26,885 nt of DNA from a virus, in IMG/VR virus record IMGVR_UViG_3300030388_001268, positions 1 to 26,885 of that record; one strand, written 5' to 3'. Made by a program: the position numbers and the translations under genes. Below the pieces are notes generated by a model. It searched no databases. It was not told where the DNA came from and was given only the letters and a program-made list of their open reading frames with translations. Of the stretch, positions 14,350-24,992 are shown piece after piece (positions within the stretch are counted from its first letter, which is position 1; each line of letters starts with the position of its first letter).

Positions 14350-15039
14350 ATGTCAATTGTAAAATATGCTATGGGTGGTCCCGTATCCTCCCCTTATTCA
14401 AGCTCAATAACACCAATGCAAGGCGTCGGCGGAATGTTTCAAGACCAAAACCAGTTTGGCCGAGACGTAGCTGATTTACGAGGTTCTCCATTACAAAATT
14501 ATCAAGAGTATTTGATGGGAACTTACGGTAAAATGGCGGAAGATGCAGTACAAAAATCTGCCCAACAAGATGTAGAACATTTTGTAAAATTAGTTGACGA
14601 GGCAGAGCGGGCTCATTTTGGAGCAGAAGAAAGCTTTGGCTTTGGCGGTGGACAAATGCACCTTGATAGCCTTTCTGCGTTTGATAAAGTCCCCGATGCC
14701 GTCAACGTCAGCGGTATAACACGCGCTGTAGGCGAAGACGGTGAGGGTGGGATGGGGATGGGGTTTTCAACTACACAAGTTATGGGTGAAGACGGTGGGG
14801 GTGGGATGGCGTTTGGTGGTGGCTTAAAAATGACTACACAAGCTATAGGTGAAGACGGTGGGGGTGGGGGTGAAATGCCGTCGTATGGTGAAATAGCGAC
14901 GGCCTTTGAACCACTAAACCGGTCATCAGACCTTGCATCCGCTGAAATGCTAGGCGGTGGGGGTGAAATGGCGAGGGCCTTTGAACCACAAGGCGTTGGC
15001 GGATTGTTTAAACTTTTTAGCGGTGGTGGAGCCGTTTAA
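14350..15039 (+). CDS. Gly-rich protein, last gene of the virion block (229 aa)
   Basis: 229 aa. The N-terminal half has helical content (DVADLRGSPLQNYQEYLMGT; DAVQKSAQQDVEHFVKLVDE). The second half holds three related units around GEDGGGGM (AVGEDGEGGMGMGF, QVMGEDGGGGMAFG, QAIGEDGGGGGEM) and two units around GGGEMARAFEP/GEMPSYGEIATAFEP. It starts behind GGAAG, two bases after the giant virion gene, and shares its strand and style, so a minor virion or tail component is likely. It stops 18 bases before the end of the convergent helicase gene, and no clear terminator lies between them. Family not recognised. Confidence 0.65.
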   Translation: MSIVKYAMGGPVSSPYSSSITPMQGVGGMFQDQNQFGRDVADLRGSPLQNYQEYLMGTYGKMAEDAVQKSAQQDVEHFVKLVDEAERAHFGAEESFGFGGGQMHLDSLSAFDKVPDAVNVSGITRAVGEDGEGGMGMGFSTTQVMGEDGGGGMAFGGGLKMTTQAIGEDGGGGGEMPSYGEIATAFEPLNRSSDLASAEMLGGGGEMARAFEPQGVGGLFKLFSGGGAV

Positions 15040-15057: not shown

Positions 15058-16506
15058 TTACCTTAACCAGTCTTTAGCGTCTTCTCCCAACACCTGACCG
15101 GCAATGTCAATTTTACTGCGCAACGCCTTTAGTATTTTTTCATCGATTGTATCAGGCGAAACCATGTCAATATAGGTGACCTTGTTTGTCTGTCCAATGC
15201 GGTGGGCGCGATCCTCGGACTGTAATCTAATCTCCAAGTCATAACTATTTGAAAAGTAAATTACGGTGTTGGCGGCTGTAAGTGTAATGCCATACCCGCC
15301 TGTACGGGGTTGCCCCACAAAGAACCTAAGTGGATCGTTTTTATCTTGAAAGCGCGTAACAATAGCCTGACGTTCATCTTGTGGAGTACCGCCAAAGTAT
15401 GTTGCCACAGAGTCCAGACCAAATCTTTCTTGTAGCGCTCGTTCTATGCGTAAGATGTCATGCGTATAAGTAGCCCAGATAATAGCCTTACCCTGCACCT
15501 CATCCGTTAGCTCCAATAATTCCTTTAGCCTGTTGCTTGCAATAGTTTGTATTTCCCCCTCGTCGGGCTGTAGAAAACCGCAACATATCTGTTGTAAGCG
15601 CATGATCTGCGTAAGAACACTAGCCGTTGTTGCAAGCTCCCCACTGTCTAACTTTGCCAAAGCTAACTTTTTCATTTGTGTGTAAAGTTTTTTTTGCTCT
15701 GGCGTAAACTCTATCTCACGGCGTACATAAACTTTCTCAGGTAAATCCAAACAGTCTTCTTTTAATACACGATTACTAAACAAATCTAACTTTTCAGAAA
15801 GTTCTTCTAACCTCCTGTAACCTACGATCTGTTGAAAGCTCCGGTGACCCATGGTGCGTTGTTGAATATTGGCGTACCGCGCCTGAAAAGCAAAGTAGCT
15901 GTTAAACCCTAGCGCCTTGTTCTTTAAGAAATCACACTGACTAAACAAATCCATAGGGCTTTTTGTTATTGGTGAGCCCGTTAAGATACGGCGATACTTT
16001 GAGTATTCCTGCAACCTTAAAATGTTCTTTGTCCGGGCCGCTTTACGATTTTTAATTGTGGTGCTTTCGTCCACAACCACAATGTTATTAGGGTTTTGAT
16101 ATAAGAACGCTAAAGCGGCCTCCGTCCCACGGCTCGTAGAAAACGCCTCTATGTTTATTACAAACAATTTAAGACCCTTATAGTCTCCCACAATAAAGTC
16201 TTTTAAGTCCGTTTCCATACGTTTTGTCTTAACGGGCGTCCAACGTAAGATGTTTCGATTTATCCTATCGGGTAGATGAGCTGGTATCTCATTCTTGACC
16301 CAATTGTCATAAACCCCCTTGGGTGCAACAACTAACGCAGAATCTATCTTGCCAGCTTCAAAAAGAACCGCCATGGTATCTATAGCCACTTTAGTTTTGC
16401 CTGTTCCCATTTCCATAAACAGCGCATAATACTCCTCGGCCCACGAGGCTTCTAACGCGTTACGTTGGTGATCATATGGGTTGGTTTTGTATTTGAATCC
16501 GTGCAT
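15058..16506 (-). CDS. SNF2-type superfamily 2 helicase/ATPase
   Basis: 482 aa, reverse strand. Helicase motifs in order: Q-like motif YDHQRNAL (11-18), Walker A GTGKT (34-38), motif II VVDEST (144-149, DEST in place of DEAH), motif III LTGSPI (175-180), and the C-terminal lobe with GYGITLTAANTVIYF and QSEDRAHRIGQT (motifs V and VI of the SNF2 group). SNF2 proteins translocate on double-stranded DNA. Phage versions occur in replication modules and may remodel protein-DNA complexes or branched DNA. The length fits the minimal two-lobe core without extra domains. The start at 16506 is preceded by AGGGGA six bases upstream. It is the only reverse gene in the left two-thirds of the window, convergent with the virion block and divergent from the replication operon. 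Confidence 0.9.
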   Translation of the reverse strand: MHGFKYKTNPYDHQRNALEASWAEEYYALFMEMGTGKTKVAIDTMAVLFEAGKIDSALVVAPKGVYDNWVKNEIPAHLPDRINRNILRWTPVKTKRMETDLKDFIVGDYKGLKLFVINIEAFSTSRGTEAALAFLYQNPNNIVVVDESTTIKNRKAARTKNILRLQEYSKYRRILTGSPITKSPMDLFSQCDFLKNKALGFNSYFAFQARYANIQQRTMGHRSFQQIVGYRRLEELSEKLDLFSNRVLKEDCLDLPEKVYVRREIEFTPEQKKLYTQMKKLALAKLDSGELATTASVLTQIMRLQQICCGFLQPDEGEIQTIASNRLKELLELTDEVQGKAIIWATYTHDILRIERALQERFGLDSVATYFGGTPQDERQAIVTRFQDKNDPLRFFVGQPRTGGYGITLTAANTVIYFSNSYDLEIRLQSEDRAHRIGQTNKVTYIDMVSPDTIDEKILKALRSKIDIAGQVLGEDAKDWLR

Positions 16507-21535: not shown

Positions 21536-21894
21536 TGAAACGCAATGAATTATTAAATAAAGCAGAAACCTTAATTACAGGGGATCGTGCAAAAGACTAC
21601 GGTGATGCCTACGAAAATCACGGGCGTATCGCTGATGGTTGGAACATTATTATGAATGGAGCTTTAAAGAGCCACGGCTTTTTAACTCCGTCACACGTAA
21701 CCTTAATGATGGACTGGGTAAAAACCAGTAGGCTCATCGAAACAATAGACCATGAGGATTCATGGGTTGATAAGGCGGGATACACCGCTCTGGGGGCAGA
21801 GTTTATCGAAAGAGATGCTCGACCTGTAAATAAAATTATTGAGGAAATAAAAAATGGCAAATCTACAAATGGCTATGTTCGCTCCAAAGAGTGA
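21535..21894 (+). CDS. DUF6378-like phage protein (119 aa)
   Basis: 119 aa. It resembles the small phage family annotated DUF6378: LITGDRAKDYGDAYENHGRI near the N-terminus, then VTLMMDWVKTSRLIETIDH and EDSWVDKAGYTALGAEF. The conserved Asp, His and Trp residues of this pattern are present; the biochemical activity is unknown. Family members tend to sit in replication or nucleotide-metabolism modules, as here. The last 41 bases overlap the DNA polymerase start, so the two are probably coexpressed. The DUF call is from memory of the pattern, not a search. Confidence 0.7.
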   Translation: MKRNELLNKAETLITGDRAKDYGDAYENHGRIADGWNIIMNGALKSHGFLTPSHVTLMMDWVKTSRLIETIDHEDSWVDKAGYTALGAEFIERDARPVNKIIEEIKNGKSTNGYVRSKE

Positions 21895-23749
21895 ATGGAT
21901 GCCACCCCTTGAGTTACCAGACATCACAAGTGCCGCTAAGATCGCGATTGATGTTGAAACACGCGACCCGAACCTAAAAAAGAATGGTCCCGGATGGCCT
22001 ACCGGTGATGGGGAGGTTGTAGGATATGCCGTGGCAATAGACGGTTGGTCTGGTTACATACCCATTAGGCATTACGGGGGCGGCAATTTAGATGAAAAGA
22101 TTGTAAACCGTTGGCTTAAAAAGGTGTTTGAGTGTCCCGCAGATAAAATCATGCACAACGCACAATATGATCTAGGTTGGATTAAACGCATGGGCTTTAC
22201 TGTTAATGGACGCATTATTGACACAATGCTTGTAGCGTCGCTCTTAGATGAAAACCGGTTCAGTTACAGTCTGAATGCGTTGGCCTACGAACACTTGGGC
22301 AAAACCAAATCAGAAAAAGCTCTTGTTGAAGCTGCAAGAGAGTTTGGCGTCGATCCAAAAGCTGAGATGTGGAAAATGCCGGCCATGTATGTCGGGCCCT
22401 ATGCGGAAGTAGATGCTGTACTTACCTTAGAATTATGGAATTACTTTTCTACAATGTTAGGTAAAGAAGACCTTTGGAGCATAGCTAACACAGAACTCGA
22501 CCTCTTACCGTGCCTTGTTGATATGACAATGCGAGGCGTTAGAATAGACGTAAACCGCGTCGAACGAACCAAAGACATGCTTTTGAAGCGTGAAAAAAAA
22601 GTGATGAAAGAAATTGACCGTATTACAGGGTCTAGGGTTGAAATCTGGGCGGCACAATCTTTGTCTAAAGCGTTTGATAAATTAGATATAACTTATCCAA
22701 AAACAGAAAAAGGCGCTCCATCGTTCACAAAACATTTTCTAAACGAACATGCGCATCCTGTGTCTAAGTTAATTGTTGAAGCCCGTAACCTGAACAAAAC
22801 TTCAGGTACGTTTATAAACACAATTATAAAACATTGTAGAGCTGACGGACGCATACATTCTCACATAAACCAAATCCGATCAGACGATGGGGGAACAGTC
22901 AGCGGTAGAATTTCAATGTCAAACCCCAACCTACAACAAATTCCGGCCCGCGATCCAGAGCTAGGACCTATGATCCGAAGTCTATTCTTGCCGGAAGAAG
23001 GCGATCAGTGGGCGGCCATCGATTACTCGCAACAAGAACCACGCATCTTGGTTCACTACGCACATGTCTACGGCAAAACACGAGGTATTCCACTCGAAGG
23101 TGCGGCCGAGTTCGTCGAAGCATACAACACGGACCCCGCAACAGACTTCCATACAATGGTTGCGGAGATGACAAACATTCCCCGTAAGCAAGCAAAGACA
23201 ATTAATCTCGCGCTAATGTATGGTATGGGTGTAAATAAAATGGCTGAAAGCTTAGATATTACAGTAGAAGAAGCCAAAAAACTCGTCAAGCAATACCACA
23301 ACCGCGTACCTTTTGTTAAAGGTTTGATGACCGGCGTAATGAACAGACTGAACGAAAATTCTTCGGCAGGGGCTCTGCGCTCACTGGGCGGCCGTAAGTG
23401 CCGCTTTGACATGTGGGAACCCGATACGTTCGCAATGAACAAAGCCCTGCCTTACAGGGAAGCGGTGTCCACCTACGGGGCCACTACGCGTCTAAAGAGG
23501 GCTTACACATATAAAGCCCTGAACCGGTTGATCCAAGCGTCTGCCGCAGACATGACAAAAAAAGCAATGGTGGCTCTTTACCAAAAAGGAAAGCTCCCAC
23601 TTGTGCAAATTCATGACGAAATTGCTATGTCCGTAAAAAATCTTGACGAAGCTAATGAAATAGCTAGGATAATGGAGAATGTTCTTCCGTTAGAGGTCCC
23701 CAGTAAATGTGATATTGAAATGGGACCGTCTTGGGGTGAGTCCATGTAG
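21854..23749 (+). CDS. polA: DNA polymerase I (family A) with 3'-5' exonuclease domain
   Basis: 631 aa. The exonuclease domain is intact: Exo I D33-x-E35 (AIDVETRD), Exo II HNAQYD (101-106), Exo III Y183-x3-D187. The polymerase domain has motif A D390-YSQQE395, motif B RKQAKTINLALMYG (R444, K448, Tyr in MYG) and motif C HDE (587-589). The residue aligned with E. coli Phe762 is Leu452. There is no 5'-nuclease domain, as usual for phage PolA. It should be the replicative polymerase, working with the AEP primase, helicases and SSB candidate upstream. Start: GAGG about ten bases before 21854, overlapping the previous gene by 41 bases. A strong terminator follows. Confidence 0.95.
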   Translation: MANLQMAMFAPKSEWMPPLELPDITSAAKIAIDVETRDPNLKKNGPGWPTGDGEVVGYAVAIDGWSGYIPIRHYGGGNLDEKIVNRWLKKVFECPADKIMHNAQYDLGWIKRMGFTVNGRIIDTMLVASLLDENRFSYSLNALAYEHLGKTKSEKALVEAAREFGVDPKAEMWKMPAMYVGPYAEVDAVLTLELWNYFSTMLGKEDLWSIANTELDLLPCLVDMTMRGVRIDVNRVERTKDMLLKREKKVMKEIDRITGSRVEIWAAQSLSKAFDKLDITYPKTEKGAPSFTKHFLNEHAHPVSKLIVEARNLNKTSGTFINTIIKHCRADGRIHSHINQIRSDDGGTVSGRISMSNPNLQQIPARDPELGPMIRSLFLPEEGDQWAAIDYSQQEPRILVHYAHVYGKTRGIPLEGAAEFVEAYNTDPATDFHTMVAEMTNIPRKQAKTINLALMYGMGVNKMAESLDITVEEAKKLVKQYHNRVPFVKGLMTGVMNRLNENSSAGALRSLGGRKCRFDMWEPDTFAMNKALPYREAVSTYGATTRLKRAYTYKALNRLIQASAADMTKKAMVALYQKGKLPLVQIHDEIAMSVKNLDEANEIARIMENVLPLEVPSKCDIEMGPSWGESM

Positions 23750-23762
23750 TTTTTTTCTGCTC

Positions 23763-23780
23763 GACAAAGCTACGCTTGTC
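23763..23780. repeat. Imperfect hairpin, left copy of a motif flanking the ATP-grasp gene
   Basis: GACAAAGC-TAC-GCTTGTC can fold on itself (GACAA/TTGTC plus GC/GC with one bulge). The first 16 bases match 24620-24635 at 14 positions (GACAAAGC-GAG-GCTTG). The two copies lie in direct orientation on either side of the reverse-strand ATP-grasp gene. Confidence 0.45.
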
Positions 23781-23787
23781 CTACTTT

Positions 23788-23820
23788 ACCCCAACCCTTA
23801 AAAAAGGTTGGGGTTTTTTT
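23788..23820 (+). terminator. Strong terminator after DNA polymerase
   Basis: ACCCCAACC (23788-23796) pairs with GGTTGGGGT (23806-23814), a perfect 9-bp stem with a 9-base loop, followed by TTTTTT to 23820. It ends the replication operon. The T-tract touches the stop codon of the convergent ATP-grasp gene (23819-23821). On the reverse strand the stem is followed by AAAG, so it is not a good terminator in that direction. Confidence 0.9.
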
Positions 23821-24568
23821 ATTTTAACTCGGTATAAATAGCTTTTGCTAAAGCACCACCTACAACATTATTAAAAGCTGCAAACATGGGCCCGCTGTTT
23901 ATTTCTAAAAAAACATCTCCCATAAAATCCGCCGCGCAAAAAGTTAAACCTAAACCACGCGCCACGGTTCTTACCTTATTTACCATGTCTGGAGAAAAAT
24001 AATGCGACGACACTTTCGTATGGGGATCATCACGGTAATCCAACTCCGTAGTTTCTAACTTAAAACCAAAATGCTGTTCTCCTATTAAAAACAAACGTCT
24101 ATTTGTCCCCTTCATACGATGTTGGATAATACCTGTGTACAACGATTCATTACCTGACTGACAATGCAGACCCCCCGTAAGTGGTTTAACAATGCAATCG
24201 CCGTCTATAGGCCCCTTACCAATAATTGTGCGCGGTATTTTAAGACCCGCGGCTAGGGCTCGACGAAGATTAGCGGCCTTGATAGGGGTTATGTGGTCAT
24301 AGTTTCGATTATAACAGGCTATCTCTGGATTAGATTTAAGATAATTAACCATAAGATACCAATTATTATACCGTTGGTGTGTGTTTTCACTAAAAACGTT
24401 AGCTCTGCCAAAAAACCCGCTAATAGTAACAGGTTCTCCACCCTGCACAAGAATGTTTGTGTTCAAGTCCCACGTATAATCAGCCTCCTGATCCAGAAAC
24501 AAATCAAAATATGGTCGTAATGATGCAATGTTCGGGTCCTGCATCTGGCCAAAGAGAACAAAACTCAT
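23819..24568 (-). CDS. ATP-grasp ligase-like protein (249 aa)
   Basis: 249 aa. The second half has the ATP-grasp pattern: IVKPLTGG (K128 and the Gly-rich phosphate loop, 126-133), GIIQHRMKGTNRRLFLIGEQ (adenine-binding strand and hinge, 146-165), and FCAADFMGDVFLEINSGPMF, where E222-x-N224 and D214 are the expected Mg-ATP ligands. Residues 87-115 (YNRNYDHITPIKAANLRRAL... IPRTII) resemble the pre-ATP-grasp segment of RimK-like and graspetide-ligase-like enzymes. Such enzymes activate a carboxylate by phosphorylation and join it to an amine, alcohol or thiol; the substrate here is unknown. Start chosen at 24568: AGGAGGT lies six bases upstream, better than an ATG at 24592. The gene runs against all its neighbours and has its own divergent control region, like a moron. 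Confidence 0.8.
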   Translation of the reverse strand: MSFVLFGQMQDPNIASLRPYFDLFLDQEADYTWDLNTNILVQGGEPVTISGFFGRANVFSENTHQRYNNWYLMVNYLKSNPEIACYNRNYDHITPIKAANLRRALAAGLKIPRTIIGKGPIDGDCIVKPLTGGLHCQSGNESLYTGIIQHRMKGTNRRLFLIGEQHFGFKLETTELDYRDDPHTKVSSHYFSPDMVNKVRTVARGLGLTFCAADFMGDVFLEINSGPMFAAFNNVVGGALAKAIYTELK

Positions 24569-24583
24569 AAATTTACCTCCTTT

Positions 24584-24640
24584 TTCTTGCATTCTTGCAT
24601 ATTATCTTATAATATCCTAGACAAAGCGAGGCTTGGAGAG
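24584..24640. promoter_or_regulatory. Divergent control region with dyad and tandem repeat
   Basis: Two tandem copies of TTCTTGCA (24584-24599) are followed by a perfect 7-bp dyad ATATTAT-CTT-ATAATAT (24599-24615). The dyad contains TATAAT (24608-24613), a good forward -10 for the ribbon-helix-helix gene, and on the reverse strand TATAAG/TAATAT, usable as a -10 for the ATP-grasp gene. Neither direction has a strong -35 (TTGCAT forward, 15-base spacer). GGAGAG (24635-24640) is the ribosome site for the forward gene. GACAAAGCGAGGCTTG (24620-24635) is the right copy of the flanking hairpin motif. Confidence 0.6.
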
Positions 24641-24646
24641 AAAAAA

Positions 24647-24829
24647 ATGGATACAACACGTTGGAAAAGTGTCCTCGTACCACGCGAGGTCTATGAAGAA
24701 ATAAAAAAACTGTCTAAAGCAGAGGGCCGAACCATTGGAGGGCAACTTCGATTGGTATTTGACTGGTACAAGGACGCACAAACCGCGGATCACGAAGCTG
24801 TGGTTGAAGATACTGTTAATGACAAATAA
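24647..24829 (+). CDS. Ribbon-helix-helix (CopG/ParD-like) regulator (60 aa)
   Basis: 60 aa. KSVLVPREVYEEIKKLSKAE followed by GRTIGGQLRLVFDWYK matches the ribbon-helix-helix layout: a short N-terminal strand (SVLVP), helix (REVYEEIKKLSKAEG), turn, and second helix (TIGGQLRLVFDWYK). Such proteins dimerise and insert the beta strand into the DNA major groove at short dyads. The acidic C-terminal tail (DHEAVVEDTVNDK) is probably disordered. Start at 24647 behind GGAGAG; an upstream in-frame ATG at 24587 overlaps the promoter and lacks a ribosome site. A matching dyad lies just upstream, so autoregulation and control of the divergent ATP-grasp gene is a natural guess. No toxin partner is seen. 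Confidence 0.7.
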   Translation: MDTTRWKSVLVPREVYEEIKKLSKAEGRTIGGQLRLVFDWYKDAQTADHEAVVEDTVNDK

Positions 24830-24992
24830 CGTTGAAAATCCTATACATAGACGGCTGATAAAAAACAAATGCCCAAAATGTGAACAAACTTTACAAATAA
24901 TTGAAAAAACAGATAAAAAACTTGTGAGAAAGTGCCATACATGCTTTCTGACAATAGAAGATGACCCTAATTACGCCGAATACCCGCAATAA
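24819..24992 (+). CDS. 57-aa zinc-ribbon miniprotein
   Basis: 57 aa (MTNNVENPIHRRLIKNKCPK... DDPNYAEYPQ). CPKC (18-21) and CHTC (39-42) form a likely zinc ribbon, with basic residues around both knuckles and an acidic C-terminus. The start overlaps the regulator gene by 11 bases, and the good cysteine spacing supports translation. Nucleic-acid binding is plausible; the target is unknown. A structured, noncoding stretch follows. Confidence 0.65.
   Translation: MTNNVENPIHRRLIKNKCPKCEQTLQIIEKTDKKLVRKCHTCFLTIEDDPNYAEYPQ

Follow-up and report, generated by a model that had tools for sequence, protein, structure and literature searches.

The viral record IMGVR_UViG_3300030388_001268 of IMG/VR (positions 1-26,885; this whole stretch of 26,885 nucleotides is the window) carries, between a DNA polymerase gene and a ribbon-helix-helix (RHH) gene, an open reading frame for an ATP-grasp protein, which raises the question of what kind of ligase a phage would carry here and what that ligase would modify. 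A sequence-only reading had placed the protein among ATP-grasp ligases of RimK or graspetide type and proposed that it is a possible moron. Graspetides are short bacterial peptides that inhibit proteases. The features at this locus are:

21854-23749, plus strand: DNA polymerase A gene (phrog_17, E 8e-121), one edge of the cargo site.
23788-23821, plus strand: terminator-like hairpin (hairpin 23788-23814), with stem ACCCCAACC/GGTTGGGGT followed by a T-run.
23819-24568, minus strand: gene for a predicted graspetide-type ATP-grasp ligase, 249 aa plus stop, an intact open reading frame assigned from a structural model and from fold and profile matches.
23897-23929, minus strand: D214 to E222-x-N224, predicted Mg-ATP site, invariant in 28 phage homologues.
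24032-24040, minus strand: D177-Y178-R179 motif, equivalent to D-F-R of PsnB in the alignment to that enzyme, invariant in 28 phage enzymes.
24185-24187, minus strand: K128, predicted ATP-binding lysine (KPLTGG), invariant in the same 28 and aligned with KPVAGG of PsnB.
24576-24582, minus strand: Shine-Dalgarno sequence AAGGAGG, read from the sequence, 7 nt before the ATG.
24587-24617, plus strand: conserved promoter-like block within the divergent control region, 5' of the RHH gene, kept in ligase-plus and ligase-minus relatives.
24647-24829, plus strand: divergent RHH gene, bounding the cargo site on the other side (RHH_5 at E 6e-4, under the family cut-off).

Comparison with relatives indicates a genuine and intact ligase gene that purifying selection maintains. 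All full-length copies in the relatives compared are intact open reading frames, and their nucleotide differences fall mostly at codon position 3 (e.g. 18/13/76 by codon position), so the reading frame is more than a chance one. The perfect Shine-Dalgarno sequence described earlier is indeed in place, and although an alternative in-frame ATG upstream at 24592 would give a protein of 257 aa, it is the M-x-x-x-LFGQM start that is kept in relatives. K97, K128, D177-Y178-R179, D214, E222 and N224 are invariant across the 28 phage homologues, which bears out the earlier view that the Mg-ATP site is intact.

The gene had been described as transcribed against all its neighbours and as lying between a strong terminator and a divergent control region. 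It does oppose both immediate neighbours, the polymerase and RHH genes, but the helicase gene at 15058-16506 likewise lies on the minus strand. Both flanking elements are present, but the hairpin carries its T-run on the plus strand only and would therefore terminate the polymerase transcript rather than that of the ligase, for which no terminator of its own was found. The RHH gene has 246 viral relatives and occurs with or without the ligase in related phages; it is followed at 24819-24992 by the gene for a small zinc-ribbon-like protein with a conserved LTIEDDP..AEYP tail, found in many but not all relatives. Both products were considered as ligase substrates and dropped, since both are also encoded where the ligase is absent and the tail of the RHH protein is variable.

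The gap between the polymerase and RHH genes is a cargo site that ranges from 66 to 2145 bp and holds different genes in different relatives. The ligase is absent from relatives at 95-98% polymerase identity, and deletion remnants that keep parts of both ends are found in L043, L026-L028 and L073-L074, whereas many other relatives carry it intact. Judged from gene content across these genomes, the ligase is accessory, moron-like cargo, as had been proposed, and is not degraded in all close relatives. The internal deletions arose independently, some apparently at short sequence repeats. The hotspot (window 23750-24646, L029-L108) also holds unrelated genes, including a family of 152-154 aa (FVYNDGGR..AGDCV.R.IAIA) and several small ORFs.

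Direct searches of PHROGs and of Pfam, R2K/CDC123 and other ATP-grasp families included, returned nothing for the ligase, with ATP-grasp_3 appearing weakly (0.002) in 2 of 11 relatives. No relatives were found among 50,697 phage records; those in IMG/VR range from 35 to 100% identity. The sole genome-contig match (L017) was a spurious one to a PAP2-type protein, and a TIGR04187 search of that contig's own genome found nothing. Searched as a single sequence, the ligase had its best PDB match in PsnB, though a weak one. A profile built from 11 diverse phage enzymes matched PsnB at E 4.5e-16, AMdnB at 7.5e-10, CdnC at 1e-7 and PruB at 1.3e-7, and these four together with the microviridin ligases 5ig8 and 5ig9 make up the six top PDB matches; D-Ala-D-Ala ligase (E 1) and RimK-type enzymes (1.3) come next. 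An AlphaFold2 model built from 28 diverse phage sequences, without the bacterial homologues, reached a pLDDT of 91.5 and a pTM of 0.87 with an ATP-grasp fold, where 10 close homologues had given a pLDDT of 40. Its top Foldseek matches in the PDB were PruB (5e-14) and PsnB (7e-14, TMq 0.78), then AMdnB, MdnC and MdnB; the first 25 chains were all graspetide ligases, with RimK next, and predicted viral proteins were remote matches only (about 10% identity). In addition, the TIGR04187 model (ATP-grasp ribosomal peptide maturase) matched 11 of 11 diverse family members. It matched the ligase at E 5e-9 and 35.7 bits, below its curated cut-off of 350 bits, but bacterial homologues that sit beside clear precursors also score far under it (40.5 bits), so the cut-off delimits a subfamily rather than the family as a whole; we make no claim of TIGR04187 membership for the ligase.

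A RimK-like enzyme would instead attach amino acids such as Glu to phage or host proteins, at acidic side chains or at the C-terminus, and RimK does come within a few orders of magnitude in the fold search. We find this scarcely credible, given that sequence profiles place graspetide ligases far above RimK-type enzymes, that the RimK model TIGR00768 gave no match for the ligase, and that the paired motif described below puts Thr before Glu/Asp, as is typical of graspetides (PMC7823629). Of the earlier assignment, the ATP-grasp fold and the graspetide type are retained and the RimK type is not, although RimK is close in fold. Profiles and predicted fold together make it well supported that the 249-aa protein is a compact graspetide-synthetase-type ATP-grasp ligase.

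Of 198 Bacteroidota genomes, three encode homologues spanning the length of the enzyme, at 32-34% identity (E to 2.6e-15). Directly upstream of each lies an 80-aa ORF ending in cores such as TTLAMGEEDVATTLAMGEEDIATTLAMGEEN, and these TTLAMGEED-type cores fit the plesiocin-like arrangement, in which nucleophiles precede acids (PMC7823629). The plesiocin-like clusters of precursor and ligase (L121:985-2133, L122:963-2136 and L123:1456-2616) lie beside a racemase-like gene. They are the closest cellular homologues found, and they share with the phage system the LFGxxxDPNIASL start and nearly identical cores, but their enzymes are longer (about 285-297 aa) and their precursor adjoins the ligase.

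When the window was scanned for this motif, one substantial ORF carried the pattern, with three repeats that match the bacterial cores:

14350-15039, plus strand: proposed substrate, a 229-aa virion-cluster protein whose gene lies downstream of that for a putative internal virion protein of 1549 aa.
14716-14751, plus strand: core repeat 1, ITRAVGEDGEGG, from the motif scan of the window.
14770-14805, plus strand: core repeat 2, TTQVMGEDGGGG, from the same scan.
14833-14868, plus strand: core repeat 3, TTQAIGEDGGGG, from the same scan.

The sequence-only reading had seen no obvious precursor nearby, but these plesiocin-like repeats lie within the window at 9-10 kb from the ligase, and other phages have the equivalent gene immediately beside the ligase. 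The double Thr is present in only two of the three repeats. Three such motifs arose in 0 of 20,000 residue shuffles of the 229-aa protein, and two motifs in only 1 of 1497 residue-shuffled ORFs. Homologues of the protein in related phages are about 680 aa long and have a C-terminal SLT transglycosylase domain (PF01464, E 4e-22 in L138); the repeat-bearing candidate substrates as a whole are 223-1061 aa, lie in virion gene clusters and are in several cases joined to an SLT domain. No leader peptide was recognised by inspection in these candidates or in the window protein, whose repeats are mid-protein, and the missing short leader-bearing precursor is a difference in the type of substrate and not in the enzyme. 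A cognate substrate with repeated Thr-before-acidic cores, as expected of a graspetide ligase, is thus predicted from the repeats of this ORF and from the association and adjacency described below.

Across related phages, at least two repeats in a virion-cluster protein were found in 6 of 6 ligase-bearing contigs of at least 17 kb and in 0 of 12 contigs without an intact ligase, two of which carry a degraded one (Fisher p 5e-5, or 1.6e-4 with the near-identical phages G199 and G200 counted once), although these p values overstate independence because the contigs are related. One ligase-lacking contig, G222, ends within the polymerase and was scored by its near-identity to G221 over the homologue of the 229-aa protein; without it the table reads 6/6 against 0/11. 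G221, a close relative that lacks the ligase, keeps a well-aligning homologue of the window ORF from which exactly the repeat block is missing, and G204, whose polymerase is 98% identical, has neither the ligase nor the window repeat ORF. Two of the six ligase-bearing contigs (G202 and G203) carry the repeats, with TTMAMGEE cores, in another protein, whose gene is inserted immediately behind the portal gene, an insertion not found in their ligase-lacking relatives. A second repeat-bearing protein with such cores stands right after the portal gene in many related phages (L163:535-1524, L164:16935-18194, L187, L195, L210, L220 and others), and L164:18702-19175 encodes a GroES-like (Cpn10) protein within the head gene cluster of a phage that has the ligase.

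Viral contigs were scanned with a DNA pattern for TTxAMGE[ED] that had been built independently of the ligase sequence, and this recovered seven contigs, each encoding a divergent ligase homologue immediately 5' of the repeat gene and in the same orientation. With the ligase family extended, about 20 contigs have a motif-bearing ORF that begins within about 10 nt of the ligase stop, and two adjacency-type contigs show the gene order polymerase, RHH, ligase, repeat gene. In the tree, the window-type enzymes, with ligase and substrate apart, form one clade (support 96/92) among the operon-type enzymes. The 131 distinct core windows from 35 contigs have Thr at position 1 in 82 and Ala at position 4 in 117, whereas the search pattern itself sets the Thr at 2, the Gly at 6 and the Glu at 7, which therefore do not count as evidence. 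Cores are divergent (TTLAVGEQ) in the operon lineage L270-L273, and L267 and L268 have one good core only. Fourteen contigs carry repeats without a ligase, but none of their sequence includes the polymerase or RHH gene, so the ligase site is not covered and they are no counterexample. Single TTYAMGEE-type matches elsewhere in the scan (L186, L193 and L212, for example) fall in unrelated proteins and were left out of the counts; another conserved phage protein (..RWFFGVVEDRDDPK; L186, L193, L194, L212, L216) has one TTYAMGEEG at its N-terminus, which probably has no connection with the ligase system.

Coincidence would mean that the repeats are ordinary Gly-rich structural sequence and that the ligase targets an unrelated host protein; the related contigs are not independent, and the ORFs of these phages have a high content of G, E, T, A and M. 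However, the ligase directly adjoins the repeat gene in divergent phage lineages, near-identical cores stand beside the bacterial homologues, and shuffled ORFs rarely yield two motifs, so that we give this explanation very little credence. On these genomic comparisons, the genetic pairing of ligase and repeats is well supported.

We consider it likely that, in the repeats of its own virion-cluster proteins, the phage links Thr to Glu/Asp side chains, as PsnB does on plesiocin. With ATP, the ligase would phosphorylate a Glu/Asp side chain in the T-T-x-A-[MVI]-G-E-[DE] repeat, and the neighbouring Thr hydroxyl would attack it, releasing water and leaving an ester cross-link (-18 Da per link). 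The substrate would be the product of ORF 14350-15039 here and other virion-cluster proteins in relatives, giving proteins with several small stapled hairpins. We infer the ester bond and its position by analogy with PsnB; that the modified proteins enter the virion is a further inference. The shorter N-terminal half of the enzyme and the lack of an obvious leader suggest that the ligase recognises the repeat itself.

The cross-linked repeats might alternatively be cut out of a multi-core precursor by a protease, yielding free peptides, such as protease inhibitors, and not a modified virion protein. The bacterial homologues adjoin short multi-core precursors, all graspetides characterised as of PMC8939145 are protease inhibitors, and plesiocin potency increases with motif number (PMC13097080). 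However, the phage repeats lie within large virion-cluster proteins, several with an SLT domain, and no dedicated protease or transporter was noticed in passing next to the ligase, which makes this route unlikely. Cross-linking between molecules, with the ligase joining repeat proteins to one another or to further virion proteins, has a precedent in an engineered graspetide synthetase that couples two proteins (PMC12291112), and the repeats stand in Gly-rich, likely flexible segments. This seems more doubtful still, given that Thr and Glu/Asp occur inside the same eight residues of each repeat, as in intramolecular plesiocin-like cores.

The proposed intramolecular stapling would most resemble the PsnB/plesiocin system, with which the phage shares the ATP-grasp fold, the Mg-ATP residues, the D-[FY]-R motif, a single ligase and repeated Thr-before-Glu/Asp cores. 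However, PsnB has 334 aa against 249 aa in the phage enzyme, and in place of the plesiocin precursor the candidate substrate is a large virion-cluster protein without an evident leader, whose gene can be unlinked from that of the ligase. PruB (9bou), AMdnB, MdnB/MdnC and CdnC also match by fold and profile, but they are bacterial enzymes for short precursor peptides with other core patterns, whereas the RimK family of alpha-L-glutamate ligases, phage RimK-like proteins included, shares the ATP-grasp fold but is remote by sequence and catalyses a different reaction. A literature search combining graspetide with phage or virus, thin in its coverage of subscription papers and thus not proof of absence, found no report of a phage-encoded graspetide ligase, and a survey of graspetides makes no mention of phages (PMC8939145).

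The benefit of stapling to the phage is speculative, and might be protease resistance, inhibition of host proteases by the ejected proteins or stiffening of a Gly-rich linker. Phages often eject the proteins of such virion clusters together with their DNA, and hairpins stapled in this way could then withstand or inhibit host proteases. We tentatively suggest that widespread uncultured phages use graspetide chemistry on packaged and ejected virion proteins, some with a lytic transglycosylase domain, to form hairpins that resist proteases, and possibly inhibit them, and that act during entry in the envelope or cytoplasm of the host. If true, small and possibly leader-independent ligases of this kind would be useful for protein stapling, a group of phage genes without a family match in the libraries searched would be explained, and graspetide chemistry would be extended to a new use, the natural modification of proteins.
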